A stretch of 64,000 nt of DNA from Runella sp. MFBS21 (GTDB lineage Bacteria; Bacteroidota; Bacteroidia; Cytophagales; Spirosomataceae), in contig NZ_JARNTW010000015.1 in assembly GCF_029433105.1 (NCBI RefSeq), positions 62,001-126,000 of the forward strand, in the 5' to 3' direction. The notes beneath the pieces were generated by a model. The model saw nothing but the letters and a program-made list of their open reading frames with translations. It did no database searches and was not told the origin of the DNA. A program made the position numbers and the translations under genes. This document shows, one piece after another, positions 1 to 8,573 of the stretch (the stretch's first letter is position 1; every line of letters starts with the position of its first letter).

Positions 1-3000
1 ATTCCCAAAAACACATTCTCTATCCTTATAGTTTTACTTTTAGGTTTACTAGGAAAGAGCTTTGGGCAAACTGTGGAAGGAACAGTTTTTAGAGATTTCA
101 ATGCGGATGGGCAAATCACTAACACCTCCACTTTCAATGAAATAGGTGTGCCTAATATATTGGTTAGTGCATTTAGAGCCGATGGTAGTTTGGCAGACTC
201 TGTCCGTACAGCTTCAGATGGTAGCTATGTTCTTACAGTAGGTAGCACGGCCGCTTTTCGTATCGAATTTAAAGATTTTTTAATCGGTGATTTTGAAGGT
301 CCTTTTGCAGTTTCAGGAAGCCACACTTCTGTACAATTCGTCAATGGAGGAAGTACAGGAATAAATCTAGGCATCAATTACCCTGCTAATTATTGTGAAA
401 CGGAAACTCCTCAAATGGTAACGACCTGTTTTGTCGCCGTTAACACTGCTATTGGGAGCTCTTCCTTGGGAGATCGTGATGCCTTGGTAGGTGCAGCTTA
501 CAATGCAACAGATGATAACAAAGTCATCTCTCACTATGCTACCGTCAATGATATCGGCTCTGCATGGGGATTGACTTATAAAAGAGAAACAAAACAACTT
601 TTTTCAACAGCTTTTACAAAACGTCATATTGGATTTACGCCCAAAGGGCCTGGTGCTATTTTTGTTACAAATATTAATAGCCTAGACACGACTACTACTG
701 AGTTTTTTAATTTCGGAACTGTGGCGGGAGTAGATATGCATACTGATGTACCCACTGAACTAAGCGGTGGAAGACTCGATAGCTATGATATTCCTGCCTA
801 CGATGCCGTCGGAAAGGTTGGTTTGGGAGATATTGATATTTCGGATGATGGCAAAACGCTATGGCTCACCAACCTTTCCAACCGAAAATTGTACTCACTC
901 GACATCGCGACAAAAGATACAGTATCATATACGATTCCTAACCCATGTGCCGGTAAAAGCTATCGGCCTTTTGCTACTAAATTTTACCGAAACAAAGTGT
1001 ACGTAGGGGTCGTATGTACGCGTGAAGATGCTTCTACTAAAACAGATAGCGCAGGTTTAGCCGCCACGGTCTATGCTTTCGAAAATGGCACGTTTAGTCC
1101 GGTTCTCAATTTTCCTCTTACGTATGTTAAAGGCGCAAGTAATGCCGATGTCTCAGGAATTGCGCGAGCAGAATTGTGGCGCCCTTGGATTCAAGATTAT
1201 AATCCAGACCGCACAGGGCCTGTCAGTTTCCCTCAAGCTTGGTTGACAGATATTGAATTTGATGTAGATGGGTCTATGCTACTCGGTATTCGTGACCGTT
1301 TTGGGGATCAAGTAGGTTATCAAAACAGGAAACCTATCCAAGACGACCCTGATTTTATAAGTGGAATTACCCCTGGAGAAGTATTAAGAGCGGGTCCATG
1401 TGGTCCAAATGGCACTTGGCTCATCGAACAAAATGGTTCTGTCTGTGGTAGTACTCCTTCTTCTAACCAAAGCTCAGCCAATGGCCCTGGCAATGGGAAA
1501 TATTACTGGGGAGACCGTGTCCAAAACGGAGACAATCACCGTATGAGTTCGCAAGGCGGTATAGCAATATTAGCGGGAAGTGGTAAACTCGCTATGACAG
1601 CAGTAGACCCTACTGATGTATTTAACACTGGTGGTATCAAACGCCTCATCAACTCGAATGGAAATAAAGACGGTAACGCCACTGGAACCTCAGTCAATAC
1701 AAATGGAGGCGTCGTATTGTACGCAAGTGATGCTTTCGGCTACGGCAAGGCCAATGGAGTAGGTGATTTGGAAATCCTCTGTGCTCCTCAACCTATCGAA
1801 ATCGGAAACCGCATCTGGAAAGACTTGGATAAAGATGGTATCCAAGATGCCAATGAGCCTGGTATTGATGGCGTCACAGTTACACTTTGTGACTCTACTG
1901 GTGCTACTATTGCATCCGCACAAACTGCCAATGGAGGTCAGTATTATTTTTCTTCTGCCAACACTTCTGGAGGGCCTGCTTATGTCCAATATGAAGTTCC
2001 CTTAAAAACCAACACGAAGTATATTATTAAAATAGAAAACTACGCTACCCAAACCGCTCTTCTAAACTGCATCCCTAGCACAGCAAACGCAGGTAATGAC
2101 AATATTGATTCTGATTTTGAGATAGAAGATAGTAACCTAAAATTTACTTTAATTACAGGAGGTGCTGGCGAAAACGATTTTAAAATAGATGCTGGCTTTA
2201 TTGCCTGTGTTAAACCAAATGCAGGAAACGATACCAGTGCTTGTGCTGGTGTATCATCAATCAAGTTAAAAAGTGTTGTATCTCCCGAAAGTTGGATTCC
2301 TGCTGCGGGTAATCCTTTAACCATCAACGCCACTACAGGGGTAATCACAGGCGCAGCGCTCAATACTCCGGGTACTTATTCGTTCATTTTATTATATGAA
2401 GGATCATCTACTTGCGCTGATACAGTCAATGTAACCATACGTACAAATGTCGAAATCTCCGTTACATCTCCCCAAAATGCTGAGGTGTGTGCAGATGAAG
2501 GTAATGCCCAACTTGCCGTGAATGTGTCGGGAGGAAATTGGGCAAGCGTTTCAAACTACCCTGGTGTAGTCATAAACCCTTCTACAGGAGCCATTACAGG
2601 TCTTAATACGCCTGGTATATATAAGTTTGTATATTTAGTAGATACTACGCTCTATTGTCTTGATACCGTCAGTATCAATGTCAAGGATTGCTGTAAGCAA
2701 CCAAGTTGGGAAATTACCGTACCCGCTACTTGCGCCGTAGAATCACAGACTTATTCCGTATCATTTTTTGTGAACAACAAAAATGGTATCATCAAAACCA
2801 ACTACGGAACAATCACTGGTAGTAACCCCTATTCTGTCACTAACATCCCTAACAATTTTAACCTCGTCATCACCGATAGCCTCAACGCTTCTTGCGTTTT
2901 TGATACTACTATCACTGCGCCTGATTGTAGCTGTCCACAAGTATTACCCCTTACACCTAATGCCTCCGCTTGTATCGGCGATACTCTTCCTACCCTTAGG

Positions 3001-3858
3001 GTGAGTCTGGCTGGATCAAACACAAACGGTGTCACTATTGAGTGGTATAGCTCTAGTACAGGAGGAACGGCGCTTGCTACTGGGCTTTCTTTCAAACCAG
3101 CTGGAATTATTACTCAGAATGATACTTTTTATGTTCAACTCAACAATACTTCTGGACCTTGTATTGACCTTGATAGAGCTCCTGTAGTCGTGACAGCCCT
3201 TGACTGTCAAGTGGATATTACCCTCAAAAAGTTCGTTAACAAAAAAATAGCAGCCATCGGCGATACGCTAGTTTTTACTATCAAAGTCTGGAACCAAGCC
3301 GACAACAACGCCACAGGCGTCGAAGTCCTTGACTCGCTGCCCAATACCGTCGCATTTGTCAATGGGTCGTTTCTCGCTTCAAGAGGTAGTGCATCTTTCA
3401 CTAACAATGTCATCACTTGGAACATCGGCAACATCGCCGCTAACGGAGATACCGTCACTTTGACTTACAAAATCAAAGCCGTCTCTCAAGGTTTACATTT
3501 CAATACCGCGCAGGTTTCTAAAACCAACGAAAAAGACAAGGACTCTACTCCGGGTAACAACGACGAAACCGAAGATGACATTGACCGTCAATGCTTTACT
3601 GTACCGGTCAAACTATGCCCAGGTGAAGTAGTAGAAGCTTCAGTGCCTGCTAAATATACCAATGTGCAATGGTTCCTCAACGGACAACCTGTCAACGCTG
3701 GTAATACCGTTTTATTTAGTGAGACGGGTAACTATACTTTCACCGCAACAAACAACAGCTGCCCCGCAGAAGGATGTTGTCCTATTATCATCGAACCTGG
3801 TGACAATTGTTGCCCAGAAAACATTTGTATTCCCTTCACTATCTCTAAATCGAAATAA
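1..3858 (+). CDS. Giant secreted SdrD_B/DUF11 surface protein, 5' end cut by window edge
   Basis: The reading frame is open from base 1. The 24 codons before the first in-frame GTG (73) encode a hydrophobic stretch ending in SFGQ, a signal peptide, so the true start lies left of the window and GTG 73 is not the start. About 1285 residues are visible. Order: a short SdrD_B-like domain (nt 73-380), a ~480-residue region of the kind folded as a beta-propeller (with GLGDIDISDDGKTLW), a second SdrD_B domain (nt ~1795-2200, motif GNRIWKDLDKDGIQD), Ig-like Cys-containing modules, a DUF11 repeat (nt ~3208-3570), and a Cys-rich tail ending ICIPFTISKSK. No Por_Secre_tail-type signal is recognisable. 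Inferred to be a cell-surface or matrix protein, possibly an adhesin. It is paralogous to the next gene along its whole length; substrate or partner unknown. Confidence 0.85.
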   Translation: MPKNTFSILIVLLLGLLGKSFGQTVEGTVFRDFNADGQITNTSTFNEIGVPNILVSAFRADGSLADSVRTASDGSYVLTVGSTAAFRIEFKDFLIGDFEGPFAVSGSHTSVQFVNGGSTGINLGINYPANYCETETPQMVTTCFVAVNTAIGSSSLGDRDALVGAAYNATDDNKVISHYATVNDIGSAWGLTYKRETKQLFSTAFTKRHIGFTPKGPGAIFVTNINSLDTTTTEFFNFGTVAGVDMHTDVPTELSGGRLDSYDIPAYDAVGKVGLGDIDISDDGKTLWLTNLSNRKLYSLDIATKDTVSYTIPNPCAGKSYRPFATKFYRNKVYVGVVCTREDASTKTDSAGLAATVYAFENGTFSPVLNFPLTYVKGASNADVSGIARAELWRPWIQDYNPDRTGPVSFPQAWLTDIEFDVDGSMLLGIRDRFGDQVGYQNRKPIQDDPDFISGITPGEVLRAGPCGPNGTWLIEQNGSVCGSTPSSNQSSANGPGNGKYYWGDRVQNGDNHRMSSQGGIAILAGSGKLAMTAVDPTDVFNTGGIKRLINSNGNKDGNATGTSVNTNGGVVLYASDAFGYGKANGVGDLEILCAPQPIEIGNRIWKDLDKDGIQDANEPGIDGVTVTLCDSTGATIASAQTANGGQYYFSSANTSGGPAYVQYEVPLKTNTKYIIKIENYATQTALLNCIPSTANAGNDNIDSDFEIEDSNLKFTLITGGAGENDFKIDAGFIACVKPNAGNDTSACAGVSSIKLKSVVSPESWIPAAGNPLTINATTGVITGAALNTPGTYSFILLYEGSSTCADTVNVTIRTNVEISVTSPQNAEVCADEGNAQLAVNVSGGNWASVSNYPGVVINPSTGAITGLNTPGIYKFVYLVDTTLYCLDTVSINVKDCCKQPSWEITVPATCAVESQTYSVSFFVNNKNGIIKTNYGTITGSNPYSVTNIPNNFNLVITDSLNASCVFDTTITAPDCSCPQVLPLTPNASACIGDTLPTLRVSLAGSNTNGVTIEWYSSSTGGTALATGLSFKPAGIITQNDTFYVQLNNTSGPCIDLDRAPVVVTALDCQVDITLKKFVNKKIAAIGDTLVFTIKVWNQADNNATGVEVLDSLPNTVAFVNGSFLASRGSASFTNNVITWNIGNIAANGDTVTLTYKIKAVSQGLHFNTAQVSKTNEKDKDSTPGNNDETEDDIDRQCFTVPVKLCPGEVVEASVPAKYTNVQWFLNGQPVNAGNTVLFSETGNYTFTATNNSCPAEGCCPIIIEPGDNCCPENICIPFTISKSK
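2692..3856 (+). repeat. Long direct repeat, copy A
   Basis: This 3' part of the first surface-protein gene matches 7395-8559 at a constant offset of 4703 bases with no indel. Similarity is moderate-to-high up to about 3200 and nearly perfect afterwards, with only scattered mostly silent changes. Upstream of 2692 the two genes are clearly diverged. Confidence 0.9.
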
Positions 3859-4307: not shown

Positions 4308-7300
4308 ATGAAAAATAGCTCTATTGCTTCTGAGAATGAAGAGGCTCCTTTTAGCAAGGGAGTATTCTCTCTTTTTTCTCAGGTGGGGACCAAGCTGTTG
4401 GTTTATCTGGTTTTGAGCCTTGCATCAATACCTGCCTTGGCTCAGGTCTGCCCACCCTCTAACGTTGTTAATCCCTACATAGGCGGGAAAGTGTTTTTGG
4501 ATTATGCCCACGACGGGGTTTTTACTACAAACATCGACCAACCTATTGCGGGAGTCACCGTCACGGCTTACAATAGTGCCAATGCGGCCGTTGGTACAGC
4601 TACTTCAATTGCTGATGGGACTTATCTTATAGAGAGTGCTCAACTAAGCACAGGGACTAGTTATCGAATTGAGTTTAGCAACTTCCCCGCAGGGCATGAA
4701 CAATCTTTTGCAGGAACCAACAATGGGACTTCGGTACAGTTTGCAGCAGCCAACAGCTGTAATATCAACCTTGCCTTAACCAATCCTGACTTTTATTGTC
4801 AAGCAGCACCTAAGTTTGTCACTAGCTGTTTTGTAGAGGGTGCCAACACAGGCAATGATGACGTCTTGATTTCGATGCATTACAATTCAACCCCCACCGC
4901 TAATGACGCTGGTGATGCCGTATTAATAGCTCACGAAGCGGTAGCAAGTGCTATAGGTACTACTTTTGGGCTAGCGTATCAAAGACACTCCAAAACTCTT
5001 TTTGCTTCTGCTTATATGAAGCGATACACAGGTTTTGGCCCGAATGGACCTGGAGCTATCTATAAAATTGACAATCCTTATGATGGCTCACTTTCGGGTT
5101 CATTGTTTGTTGATTTAAACACTCTTTTTGGTTCCGATGTATTTGGTGCTGACCCGCACGATTTCACTACATTGACATCAGGAGGAGATATTATTGATGC
5201 CAACTCTTACAACCAAGTAACAAGGATTGCATTCGGAGACCTCGATATTTCAGCAGACGAACGTACCCTGTATGGTATCAACCTCAACGACCGCTCGTTG
5301 TACATTATTCCACTTGGCAATGACCCTACCAACCCTACGCCCCCTAGTTCGTCGGCCGAAGTAACGGTAGTGCCTTTGGCAGATGCTGGCAATCCTTTGC
5401 CAGATTTACCTACTATCTCCGACAATTCCGAAATTCGCCCTTTTGCCCTAAAATATTACAAAGGTCTTTTGTACATTGGATTAGTAACCAATGGGCAAGC
5501 AGGAGGAGCTTTAAGAGGATTGGTTTATACTTTCAATCCTACCAATAGCGCATTCCAAAAGAAACTAGACTTTTCTCTTAACTACAACCGTGGTTGTGGA
5601 TTTGGCCAAAATTCTACGTGTTATGGAAGTGCCAATTGGCAACCTTGGCACAATGCCAATACGCGCCCTACTCCCACAGTAAATGGTCAAGGCGAGCAAG
5701 GATATCCACAGCCTATTTTGTCCGATATTGAATTTGACGCCGCAGGAAATATGATTTTGGGACTCCGCGACCGTTTTGGCGAACAAGAAGGTAATGAATC
5801 TGCAGAGCCTACTTCTCCTTTCACACTTCGTAGAGGAGATGCATTTGGAGACTTTCTAAAAGCTACCACCAATGGCGAAAACTCTTGGACTATCGACATG
5901 GCCAATTTTACTGATCCTAGCACTGCGAGTGGTACTTCAGAGCCTGTTTTTGGAACTGATAATTATGGTCCAGTACAGGGCTATTATCATGAAGAGACAG
6001 GAATGGGAGGACTTGGGGTACTATTGAGAAGCAATGGACTCGTAGCCACGGTCATGGACCCTCGCACGGCTGCTTTTTCCAACGGAATTGATTGGTATGA
6101 TTTATCCACCGCGGGCGTAACTCAGACTAAGGCCATTACTGTTCTTACAGGAGGTAGTTTCCCCTTCGGAAAAGCTTATGGGTTAGGCGAAATTGAGTTT
6201 ATTTGTGACTTGGCCCCTATCCAAATCGGTAACCGCGTATGGAAAGATGCCAACAAAAATGGCATCCAAGATGGTGATGAAGTCGGAGTAGATGGGGTAG
6301 AGATTGAATTGTACAAAGGTACGTCGGCTACTGGTAGCCCTATTGCTACTGCTACTACCGCCAATGGTGGCCAATGGTATTTTAGTGACAAAAACGCGGC
6401 TGGAGTAACTTGGACAGGTACAGGTGCTGATACTACACTCATACCTAATACTGATTATACCATTAAAGTAAAAACTGCTTTGGGAACAGGGGCGCTGGCT
6501 ACTTGTGCGGCTTTCTCTATCAAAGATGCCCCTAGCGCAGGCGTAGCTGATGTGGCTGATAGTGATGTAAACCCTGATGGAACTATTGTTTATAAAACAG
6601 GCAGTGAAGGTGTCAATGACCACACCCTCGACATCGGCGTTATTGAGCCAGTTGGTAGCCTTGGAGATTTTGTATGGAAAGATCTCAACAACAATGGAAA
6701 ACAAGACGCCCTTGAGCCTGAGGTAGCAGGAGTGATTGTTCAACTCCTTCAAAATAGCAACGTCATCGCAACCGACACGACTGATGCCAACGGTAAGTAT
6801 GGTTTCAATAATCTGTCGTCTGGGGCTTATCAAGTCAAAATTGTACTAAGCTCATTGCCTGATAGCTGCTTAATTTCGCCTTTGCAAAACGCCGCTGGTG
6901 TAGCCGATAGCCTAGATTCAGATTTCGACTCAAACGGTCTTAGCCAAATCGTCACTATCACCACTACTGGCTCGGGTATCAATAAAGACAATCCAACTAT
7001 CGATGCAGGTCTTTTCTCTCCTAAAGGTAGCCTTGGAGATTTTGTATGGAAAGATCTCAACAACAATGGAAAACAAGACGCCATCGAGCCTGGGGTAGCA
7101 GGAGTGATTGTTCAACTTCTTCAAAATAGCAATGTCATCGCAACCGACACAACTGATGCCAACGGTAAGTATGGTTTCAGTAATCTATCGTCTGGGGCGT
7201 ATCAAGTCAAGATTTTACTAAGCTCATTGCCTGATAGCTGTATTATTTCGCCTTTGCAAAACGCCGCTGGCGTAGCTGATAGCCTAGATTCAGATTTCGA

Positions 7301-8573
7301 CTCAAACGGTCTTAGCCAAATCGTCACTATCACAGCTACTGGCTCGGGTATCAATAAAGACAATCCAACTATCGATGCAGGACTAGTAAATCCTTGTAAA
7401 CAACCAAATTGGGAGATTACAACCCCAGCAGCCTGTGCTCCTCAATCACAGACTTATTCCGTATCGTTCTTTGTAAACAACAAAAACGGTATCATCAAAA
7501 CCAACTACGGAACACTCACTGGTAGTAACCCTTATTCTGTCACTAACATCCCTAACAATTTTAACCTCGTCATCACTGATAGCCTAAACGCTTCTTGCGT
7601 TTTTGATACTACTATCACAGCGCCTGATTGTAGCTGTCCACAAGTATTACCACTCACACCTAATGCCTCCGCTTGTATCGGCGATACTCTTCCTACGCTC
7701 AAAGTGAGTCTTGTCGGATCAAACACCGACGGCGCTACTGTAGAATGGTATAGCTCTAGCACCGGAGGAACGGCGCTTGCTACTGGACTTTCTTTCAAAC
7801 CAGCTGGACTCATTACTCAAAATGACACTTTCTACGTCCAAGTTAATAGCTCAACAAGTCCTTGTACCAATTTAGATAGAATGCCTATAGTGGTAGCAGC
7901 CCTTGACTGTCAAGTAGATATTACCCTCAAAAAGTTCGTTAACAAAAAAATAGCAGCCATCGGCGATACGCTAGTTTTTACTATCAAAGTCTGGAATCAA
8001 GCCGACAACAACGCCACAGGCGTCGAAGTCCTTGACTCGCTGCCTAATACCGTCGCATTTGTCAATGGCTCGTTTCTCGCTTCAAGAGGTAGTGCATCTT
8101 TCACTAACAATGTCATCACTTGGAACATCGGCAACATCGCCGCTAACGGAGATACCGTCACTTTGACTTACAAAATCAAAGCCGTCTCTCAAGGTTTGCA
8201 TTTCAATACCGCGCAGGTTTCTAAAACCAACGAAAAAGACAAGGATTCTACTCCGGGTAACAACGACGAAACCGAGGATGACATCGACCGTCAATGCTTT
8301 ACTGTACCCGTCAAACTATGCCCAGGTGAAGTAGTTGAAGCTTCAGTGCCTGCTAAATATACCAATGTGCAATGGTTCCTCAACGGACAACCTGTCAACG
8401 CTGGTAATACCGTTTTATTTAGTGAGACGGGTAACTATACTTTCACCGCAACAAACAACAATTGCCCCGCAGAAGGATGTTGTCCTATTATCATCGAACC
8501 TGGTGACAATTGTTGCCCAGAAAACATTTGTATTCCTTTCACTATTTCCAAATCGAAATCGGCTATAAAGTAA
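4308..8573 (+). CDS. Giant secreted SdrD_B/DUF11 surface protein (paralogue)
   Basis: A 1421-residue protein. The signal peptide is unusually long: an N-region of about 28 residues, a hydrophobic core, and a predicted cleavage after ALAQ (residue 46). Then come an SdrD_B-like domain, a ~500-residue propeller-like region homologous to that of the upstream gene (AFGDLDISADERTLY), an SdrD_B domain beginning at GNRVWKDANKNGIQD, two almost identical tandem SdrD_B domains (motif GSLGDFVWKDLNNNGKQD twice), Ig-like modules, DUF11, and a Cys-rich tail. The C-terminus carries four residues (SAIK) beyond the end of the paralogue. SdrD_B domains are known in Gram-positive adhesins, where they bind calcium; the acidic D/N-rich loops here fit that. 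It is probably surface-exposed; adhesion or matrix function is inference. Confidence 0.9.
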   Translation: MKNSSIASENEEAPFSKGVFSLFSQVGTKLLVYLVLSLASIPALAQVCPPSNVVNPYIGGKVFLDYAHDGVFTTNIDQPIAGVTVTAYNSANAAVGTATSIADGTYLIESAQLSTGTSYRIEFSNFPAGHEQSFAGTNNGTSVQFAAANSCNINLALTNPDFYCQAAPKFVTSCFVEGANTGNDDVLISMHYNSTPTANDAGDAVLIAHEAVASAIGTTFGLAYQRHSKTLFASAYMKRYTGFGPNGPGAIYKIDNPYDGSLSGSLFVDLNTLFGSDVFGADPHDFTTLTSGGDIIDANSYNQVTRIAFGDLDISADERTLYGINLNDRSLYIIPLGNDPTNPTPPSSSAEVTVVPLADAGNPLPDLPTISDNSEIRPFALKYYKGLLYIGLVTNGQAGGALRGLVYTFNPTNSAFQKKLDFSLNYNRGCGFGQNSTCYGSANWQPWHNANTRPTPTVNGQGEQGYPQPILSDIEFDAAGNMILGLRDRFGEQEGNESAEPTSPFTLRRGDAFGDFLKATTNGENSWTIDMANFTDPSTASGTSEPVFGTDNYGPVQGYYHEETGMGGLGVLLRSNGLVATVMDPRTAAFSNGIDWYDLSTAGVTQTKAITVLTGGSFPFGKAYGLGEIEFICDLAPIQIGNRVWKDANKNGIQDGDEVGVDGVEIELYKGTSATGSPIATATTANGGQWYFSDKNAAGVTWTGTGADTTLIPNTDYTIKVKTALGTGALATCAAFSIKDAPSAGVADVADSDVNPDGTIVYKTGSEGVNDHTLDIGVIEPVGSLGDFVWKDLNNNGKQDALEPEVAGVIVQLLQNSNVIATDTTDANGKYGFNNLSSGAYQVKIVLSSLPDSCLISPLQNAAGVADSLDSDFDSNGLSQIVTITTTGSGINKDNPTIDAGLFSPKGSLGDFVWKDLNNNGKQDAIEPGVAGVIVQLLQNSNVIATDTTDANGKYGFSNLSSGAYQVKILLSSLPDSCIISPLQNAAGVADSLDSDFDSNGLSQIVTITATGSGINKDNPTIDAGLVNPCKQPNWEITTPAACAPQSQTYSVSFFVNNKNGIIKTNYGTLTGSNPYSVTNIPNNFNLVITDSLNASCVFDTTITAPDCSCPQVLPLTPNASACIGDTLPTLKVSLVGSNTDGATVEWYSSSTGGTALATGLSFKPAGLITQNDTFYVQVNSSTSPCTNLDRMPIVVAALDCQVDITLKKFVNKKIAAIGDTLVFTIKVWNQADNNATGVEVLDSLPNTVAFVNGSFLASRGSASFTNNVITWNIGNIAANGDTVTLTYKIKAVSQGLHFNTAQVSKTNEKDKDSTPGNNDETEDDIDRQCFTVPVKLCPGEVVEASVPAKYTNVQWFLNGQPVNAGNTVLFSETGNYTFTATNNNCPAEGCCPIIIEPGDNCCPENICIPFTISKSKSAIK
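6654..7025 (+). repeat. Tandem SdrD_B repeat, unit 1
   Basis: A 372-base unit (124 codons) encoding one SdrD_B domain. The following unit is nearly identical at the DNA level, with only scattered substitutions and no indel, which indicates a recent in-frame duplication. Confidence 0.9.
7026..7397 (+). repeat. Tandem SdrD_B repeat, unit 2
   Basis: Second copy of the 372-base unit. Similarity is lost at about 7385, where the Ig-like part begins. Confidence 0.9.
7395..8559 (+). repeat. Long direct repeat, copy B
   Basis: Partner of 2692-3856 at a constant offset of 4703 bases. Identity ends exactly at the last shared codons. The first gene then stops, whereas this one reads on for four codons. 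Confidence 0.9.

Follow-up and report, generated by a model that had tools for sequence, protein, structure and literature searches.

How two giant proteins of Runella sp. MFBS21 reach the cell surface, and which part of their shared C-terminal end might direct them there, is the question raised by this locus. The window (the whole 64,000-nucleotide stretch of DNA analysed here) derives from a 7.88 Mb genome close to Runella zeae (Cytophagales, Spirosomataceae). It opens with two tandem genes (left edge-3858 and 4308-8573, both on the + strand) encoding giant proteins with SdrD_B, Ig_7, and DUF11 domains, and the closest named relative of their C-terminal module, 98% identical, lies in the same tandem gene pair of R. 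zeae. Gene 1 (1-3858, stop codon at 3856-3858) is open at the left window edge, its start codon lying upstream and the window beginning inside its signal peptide. The 1,285 residues within the window comprise SdrD_B, Ig_7, a DUF11 domain (3214-3570, residues 1072-1190), an Ig-like cysteine-containing module (3580-3798, with limits transferred from the structure model of the gene 2 copy), and a 17-residue tail (3805-3855). Gene 2 encodes 1,421 residues with four SdrD_B domains, Ig_7, DUF11 (7917-8273, residues 1204-1322), the Ig-like module (8283-8501), and the tail (8508-8558). The initial annotation had described the common end of both proteins (3583-3855 and 8286-8570) as one module of about 90 residues and proposed it as a new C-terminal sorting or attachment signal. 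Both proteins do end in the same module, with all of the quoted motifs present, and the second copy does carry four extra residues, SAIK (8559-8570), within the open reading frame 4308-8573; extensions of 0-12 residues after the tail are usual.

Both window proteins have, as the initial annotation held, signal peptides, which are of type I with a hydrophobic core. The part of the gene 1 peptide that remains in the window (1-66, +) reads IPKNTFSILIVLLLGLLGKSFG^Q, and that of gene 2 (4308-4442, +) ends in IPALA^Q, with both cleavage sites placed by eye. No lipobox pattern, the criterion for a surface lipoprotein, occurs in the first 60 residues of either protein. Among 29 mostly full-length proteins with the tail, two have such a pattern, by eye beyond the cleavage site. 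The suggestion that neither protein has a recognisable C-terminal domain (CTD) of the type IX secretion system (T9SS) also stands, as neither matches the type A models (TIGR04183 / PF18962) or the type B models (TIGR04131 / PF13585) at E 1.

The 17-residue tail of both proteins, NCCPENICIPFTISKSK in gene 1, belongs to NCBIfam NF058574.1, “CVP-CTERM putative sorting domain”, scoring 29.5 bits (gene 1, hmmscan) and 29.3 bits (gene 2) against a curated cut-off of 19. The matches end 0 and 4 residues before the stop codon, respectively. The signal is consequently not new, since the family already has a name, and its sorting role is putative by the label of NCBIfam itself. Nor is it limited to two proteins: in the source genome, 13 of 17 NF058574 matches exceed the cut-off, namely the two window tails and 11 more. 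The term CVP-CTERM was not found in the open-access PMC literature, and no report of the properties described below, separability of the tail from the Ig-like module and alternation with T9SS domains, was found in the open-access literature searched. One further Ig-like module protein of the source genome (locus L059) ends in CVKFEAKKIKE and lacks the C-x-P motif; no NF058574 match was reported for it in the source genome search, and its tail is either decayed or divergent.

The tail follows the consensus C-P-x-x-[IVL]-C-[VI]-P-[FV]-[TV]-[IV]-x-[KQR]-x-[KR], with a third cysteine one or two residues earlier. All 52 representatives, taken at 70% identity, have a cysteine five residues before C-x-P, another six or seven before, and K or R nine after; the rows were aligned on C-x-P, whose own conservation thus holds by construction. 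Over its last 14 residues, every representative carries a net charge of at least +1 (mean +3.7), and no hydrophobic transmembrane stretch is seen in the tail columns of the 52 on reading.

Position is equally constrained. A tail profile was run over the whole length of 6,926 non-redundant stop-ended reading frames of the collected loci (7,984 with duplicates), and all 78 matches of at least 20 bits lie within 12 residues of the stop codon, although the profile leans to terminal copies because its seeds were drawn from the final 32 residues of frames. Between 12 and 20 bits the proportion is 22 of 24, with the other two at 13 and 14 residues, which gives 100 of 102 for matches of at least 12 bits. 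The 137 matches in total include 29 below 6 bits and three of 6-9 bits, for which the distance from the stop is 21, 24, and 51 residues. One CVP tail, at G327:C1:3890489-3890539, lies in an open frame of 10,969 residues, a very large predicted adhesin.

The Ig-like module behaves differently. In an AlphaFold2 model of the last 215 residues of gene 2 (mean pLDDT 87), DUF11 is followed by an Ig-like domain (about residues 120-192, with a last stretch of low confidence where residues 179-184 fall below pLDDT 50) and then by the tail, which is modelled without secondary structure (block-mean pLDDT 62-71). The Ig-like part yields 125 matches of at least 20 bits, of which 34 lie at least 45 residues from the stop. 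Some of these internal matches are generic Ig repeats near 20 bits, and the clear ones score 82-92 bits (L149, L150, L178). In several proteins of another genus (g2), the module sits about 125 residues from the end and is followed by another domain, with the CVP tail still terminal. Conversely, the module directly precedes the tail in 37 of the 52 representatives, a share inflated because the named loci were collected by an Ig-like module search, and is missing from that position in 15. A DUF11-like match falls within the last 600 residues of 45 representatives, and six have neither the module before the tail nor such a match. One of these six is a 243-residue protein without any DUF11 or Ig-like match, from a genome with a single CVP match. 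Because 15 of 52 tails lack the Ig-like module before them and six lack a nearby DUF11-like match as well, the tail travels alone. The signal is the last ~17 residues and not the whole ~90-residue module, which was dropped in that role in view of the internal occurrence of its Ig-like part and of a tail that is terminal and kept without it. Internal occurrence, which the initial annotation had named as evidence against a signal, is thus found for the 90-residue unit (34 of 125 for the Ig-like part) and not for the tail. The companion expectation of C-terminal matches on otherwise unrelated proteins is borne out for position (78 of 78) and only in part for unrelatedness, because most of the proteins share DUF11 (28 of 29).

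The same data bear on the idea that the tail is a structural end cap and not a signal, a cysteine-linked strand that closes the stalk or cross-links adhesins while another feature provides export. Three conserved cysteines would suit such a cap, as would the Ig-like and DUF11 stalk domains that precede the tail in most cases. However, the tail closes 15 of 52 proteins whose last domain is not the Ig-like module, including the 243-residue protein with neither stalk domain, and its modelled end is unstructured. These features, together with the alternation described below, in which one N-domain bears the tail in place of a type A sorting domain, make an end cap quite improbable.

The two window copies count as about one piece of evidence, because they are homogenised within the genome. 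Identity between the paralogues is 97-98% in the terminal 600 nt (3256-3855 in gene 1 and its partner tract 7959-8558 in gene 2, both +), 83-84% in the next 600 nt, and 53-55% beyond 1,200 nt. Against their R. zeae orthologues, the window genes show 89-93% identity in the terminal 600 nt and 90-92% beyond 1,200 nt; the paralogues of R. zeae itself are 94-95% identical in the terminal 600 nt. This pattern is read as gene conversion between paralogues in both Runella species, and the identity of the two window copies was accordingly dropped as a sign of constraint. Concerted evolution of the C-terminal 600 nt in two Runella species, with the same gene pair in locus L104, is an observation in its own right. 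Homogenisation and the presence of DUF11 in 28 of 29 proteins would also fit a tail without a function of its own that reflects descent only, as the end of a DUF11-Ig-like block copied among adhesins through duplication and gene conversion. Such an account is highly improbable, as the tail motif is kept while the preceding domain changes and remains terminal even when the Ig-like module is internal.

The tail and the T9SS domains alternate rather than co-occur. In the source genome, 60 of the 62 matches to TIGR04183 exceed the cut-off, as do all 19 to TIGR04131. Neither model matches any of the 29 CVP proteins scanned, of which 26 match CVP-CTERM at E 0.01, three match choice-of-anchor A, and one matches choice-of-anchor C. 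A search of the source genome with the Ig-like module returns 31 matches, the last 15 of them weak (E 2e-4 to 1.7) and, in type A and type B proteins, marginal one by one. These 15 cover 11 distinct ORFs, six with a type A and five with a type B match in the same frame; of the other four matches, three fall in ORFs already counted and the last lies in an antisense frame of 27 residues. The type A proteins L122:10275-11942 and L123:10281-11942 likewise have a weak Ig-like match before their end.

An N-domain family with two kinds of tail is the strongest evidence for sorting. This domain of about 170 residues occurs in 20 proteins of nine loci, and each locus has a member with a CVP-like tail (that of L152 has the pattern and no NF058574 match). 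In six of the nine (L122, L123, L141, L160, L168, and L169), a neighbouring gene encodes this N-domain together with a C-terminal type A domain. The type A match is over cut-off, at 28-38 bits, in all five of these neighbours that were scanned; the sixth, from L122, is 93% identical to that of L123. The N-domains of the CVP-tailed members are 41-49% identical to one type-A-tailed query. The six loci come from two close Runella species (L122, L123), Spirosoma profusum (L141), and genus g2 (L160, L168, L169), so the independent cases of alternation are fewer than six, perhaps three or four. Taken together with terminal position, these comparisons make a putative C-terminal sorting signal distinct from the T9SS type A and type B domains well supported. 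The initial claim of such a signal is upheld by the 78 of 78 terminal matches, the 0 of 29 type A or B matches, and the alternation, and is narrowed from about 90 residues to the last ~17.

A third kind of ending is seen beside CVP genes, GDVNMDG...NDVEFIYQNIIKNHPGN...FFIIREQLP, which is dockerin-like by eye and in several cases follows the same N-domain. It occurs at L141:3072-6659, L122:1-6045, L160:14494-16035, L161:10841-13327, and L169:12528-16970; no NCBIfam tail domain was found in the three of these proteins that were scanned (L141, L161, L169).

The CVP tail is probably a minimal C-terminal sorting signal that is presented to the T9SS and exports adhesins to the surface. The type I signal peptide would take the protein into the periplasm, where the unfolded tail would offer a short, β-prone, basic end to the T9SS translocon, with SprA working alongside a shuttle that resembles PorV or PorP/SprF. 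Passage of the adhesin across the outer membrane would follow, and then its display or anchoring at the surface. The T9SS route is inferred from the alternation with type A domains, the universal presence of SprA, and the precedent of short signals. The tail would likewise be expected to be necessary and sufficient for export and to be read by a shuttle; it may be cleaved, and its cysteines may bond with one another or serve in attachment. Among the points against this reading are that the tail model shows no T9SS CTD fold and that CVP genes lack the PorP/SprF linkage seen for type B. In a Foldseek search with the model of the gene 2 end, Gram-positive pilins and adhesins stand at the top of the matches listed (50 of 1,838), none of which bears the name of a T9SS CTD.

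Neighbouring genes offer little in the way of a reader. A looser tail pattern marks 93 CVP genes among 825 ORFs of the collected loci, with ten loci lacking one. Among the 732 non-CVP ORFs, a PorP/SprF profile built from six sequences has one match (L117, five genes from the CVP gene) and a PorV/PorQ profile built from four sequences has none; in the searched loci, no linked enzyme or shuttle for the tail was found. The commonest neighbours, with the most frequent clusters judged by reading, are LytTR and LuxR-type regulators and sibling adhesins. Regulators one gene away from CVP adhesin genes include the LytTR genes L133:5040-5921 and L051:4522-5103 and the LuxR-type genes L139:8492-8944, L110:9061-9693, and L052:6192-7427, and such DNA-binding neighbours may point to regulation dedicated to these genes. 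Two related genomes have a C25 (gingipain-like) peptidase domain no more than about 8 kb from a CVP tail (tail G000:C34:237709 with C34:244422-245477, and G379:C15:147142 with C15:139420-140475).

At the genome level, SprA is present in all 44 family genomes tested, and its presence therefore cannot discriminate. All 44 also have PorV/PorQ (1-4 matches), PorP/SprF (3-7), and C25 peptidases (1-5), counts that by eye fail to tell the 26 CVP-positive genomes from the 18 CVP-negative ones. Exosortase (PF09721) occurs in ten of the 44, five of 26 CVP-positive and five of 18 CVP-negative, and has 0 matches in the source genome. An exosortase route was rejected on this distribution, since the enzyme is absent from the source genome and 21 of 26 CVP-positive genomes and present in five without the tail.

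These surveys also weigh on the alternative that the signal is read by a dedicated non-T9SS machine, a sortase-like enzyme or an outer-membrane receptor of its own, with the cysteines as the site of cleavage or attachment. In its favour are the strict retention of the cysteine and K/R motif in 52 of 52 representatives and the missing T9SS CTD fold; moreover, a further class needs a reason in a source genome whose T9SS is already served by 60 type A and 19 type B domains. Such a machine is nevertheless unlikely, given that regulators and sibling adhesins make up the most frequent gene families flanking CVP genes, that reading the gene lists around the CVP gene in four single-match genomes (L160-L163) gave no shared candidate, that exosortase is distributed as described, and that the tail has no hydrophobic transmembrane stretch.

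The tail has a narrow taxonomic range. Of the 200 genomes in the family sample, 94 carry it, as do 28 of the 36 genera. The order sample has 45 carriers among 391 genomes, 44 of them in the same family (source genome included) and one outside with a weak match (E 0.002). In the phylum sample, 4 of 296 genomes match, three in the same family (again with the source genome) and a fourth at 19.2 bits in a 22-residue frame. Absences in these samples are soft, because divergent tails escape so short a profile (17 residues) at this threshold. The 56 named loci are mostly from Spirosomataceae genera or are titled “Cytophagales”. One CVP-tailed gene (L143) lies on a contig titled Flavobacterium sp. SUN052, which may be a misnamed or mixed assembly or a case of transfer. 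On sequence evidence, the CVP tail appears nearly confined to one family, a lineage with SprA that is identified as Spirosomataceae through R. zeae. It presents itself as a real, nearly lineage-restricted C-terminal sorting tag that NCBIfam already lists as putative. A bolder form of the T9SS proposal, in which the 17-residue, unfolded, three-cysteine tag constitutes a separate T9SS signal class nearly confined to Spirosomataceae, with its own shuttle and perhaps thiol attachment, is possible but doubtful.

The T9SS signals described in the papers cited here are, as far as those papers describe them, folded domains, and a 17-residue equivalent, if true, would show the minimum that the machine reads. 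Export by this route would also extend the predicted surface proteome of Runella and related bacteria by a large class of adhesins. The CVP proteins, which number 13 matches here and up to 20 in a relative, escape tools limited to type A and type B. Adjacent genes that share an N-domain and differ in the kind of tail form a natural pair for a direct test.

Compared with known systems, the window tails show no difference from NF058574 CVP-CTERM and belong to that same family. PEP-CTERM is a short C-terminal tag with a basic end and a transmembrane helix, and it needs exosortase. The CVP tail resembles it as a short C-terminal tag ending in basic residues and differs in having no transmembrane helix and in a source genome without exosortase. 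With T9SS type A (TIGR04183 / PF18962), the tail shares its C-terminal position, type I signal peptide, basic strand-like end, and N-domain; type A models, however, span 72-75 positions and, in the literature, form a β-sandwich, whereas the CVP tail is 17 residues long, has conserved cysteines, and takes no secondary structure in the model. T9SS type B (TIGR04131) occurs in the same genome (19 matches), and weak relatives of the Ig-like module precede it in five proteins; it differs in its 85 positions, its other motifs, and its usual PorP/SprF clustering, a linkage that CVP genes lack. The short CTDs of Prevotella intermedia and the 22-residue HBP35 signal are like the CVP tail in being reduced C-terminal signals, and neither would be expected to carry such a cysteine motif. 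CTDs of types A, B, and C are described in a review, which also gives the usual clustering of type B genes with a PorP/SprF gene (PMC10202324). The P. intermedia CTDs are reported at 43-55 residues (PMC11969387), and these and the HBP35 signal keep type A motifs B, D, and E, or D and E (PMC11969387, PMC3120885). For the HBP35 CTD, the final 22 residues are described as conferring secretion and glycosylation on GFP in P. gingivalis (PMC4804311) and as needed for its porT-dependent transport to the surface (PMC3120885), and CTD exchange is reported to re-route adhesins to another destination (PMC12618676).
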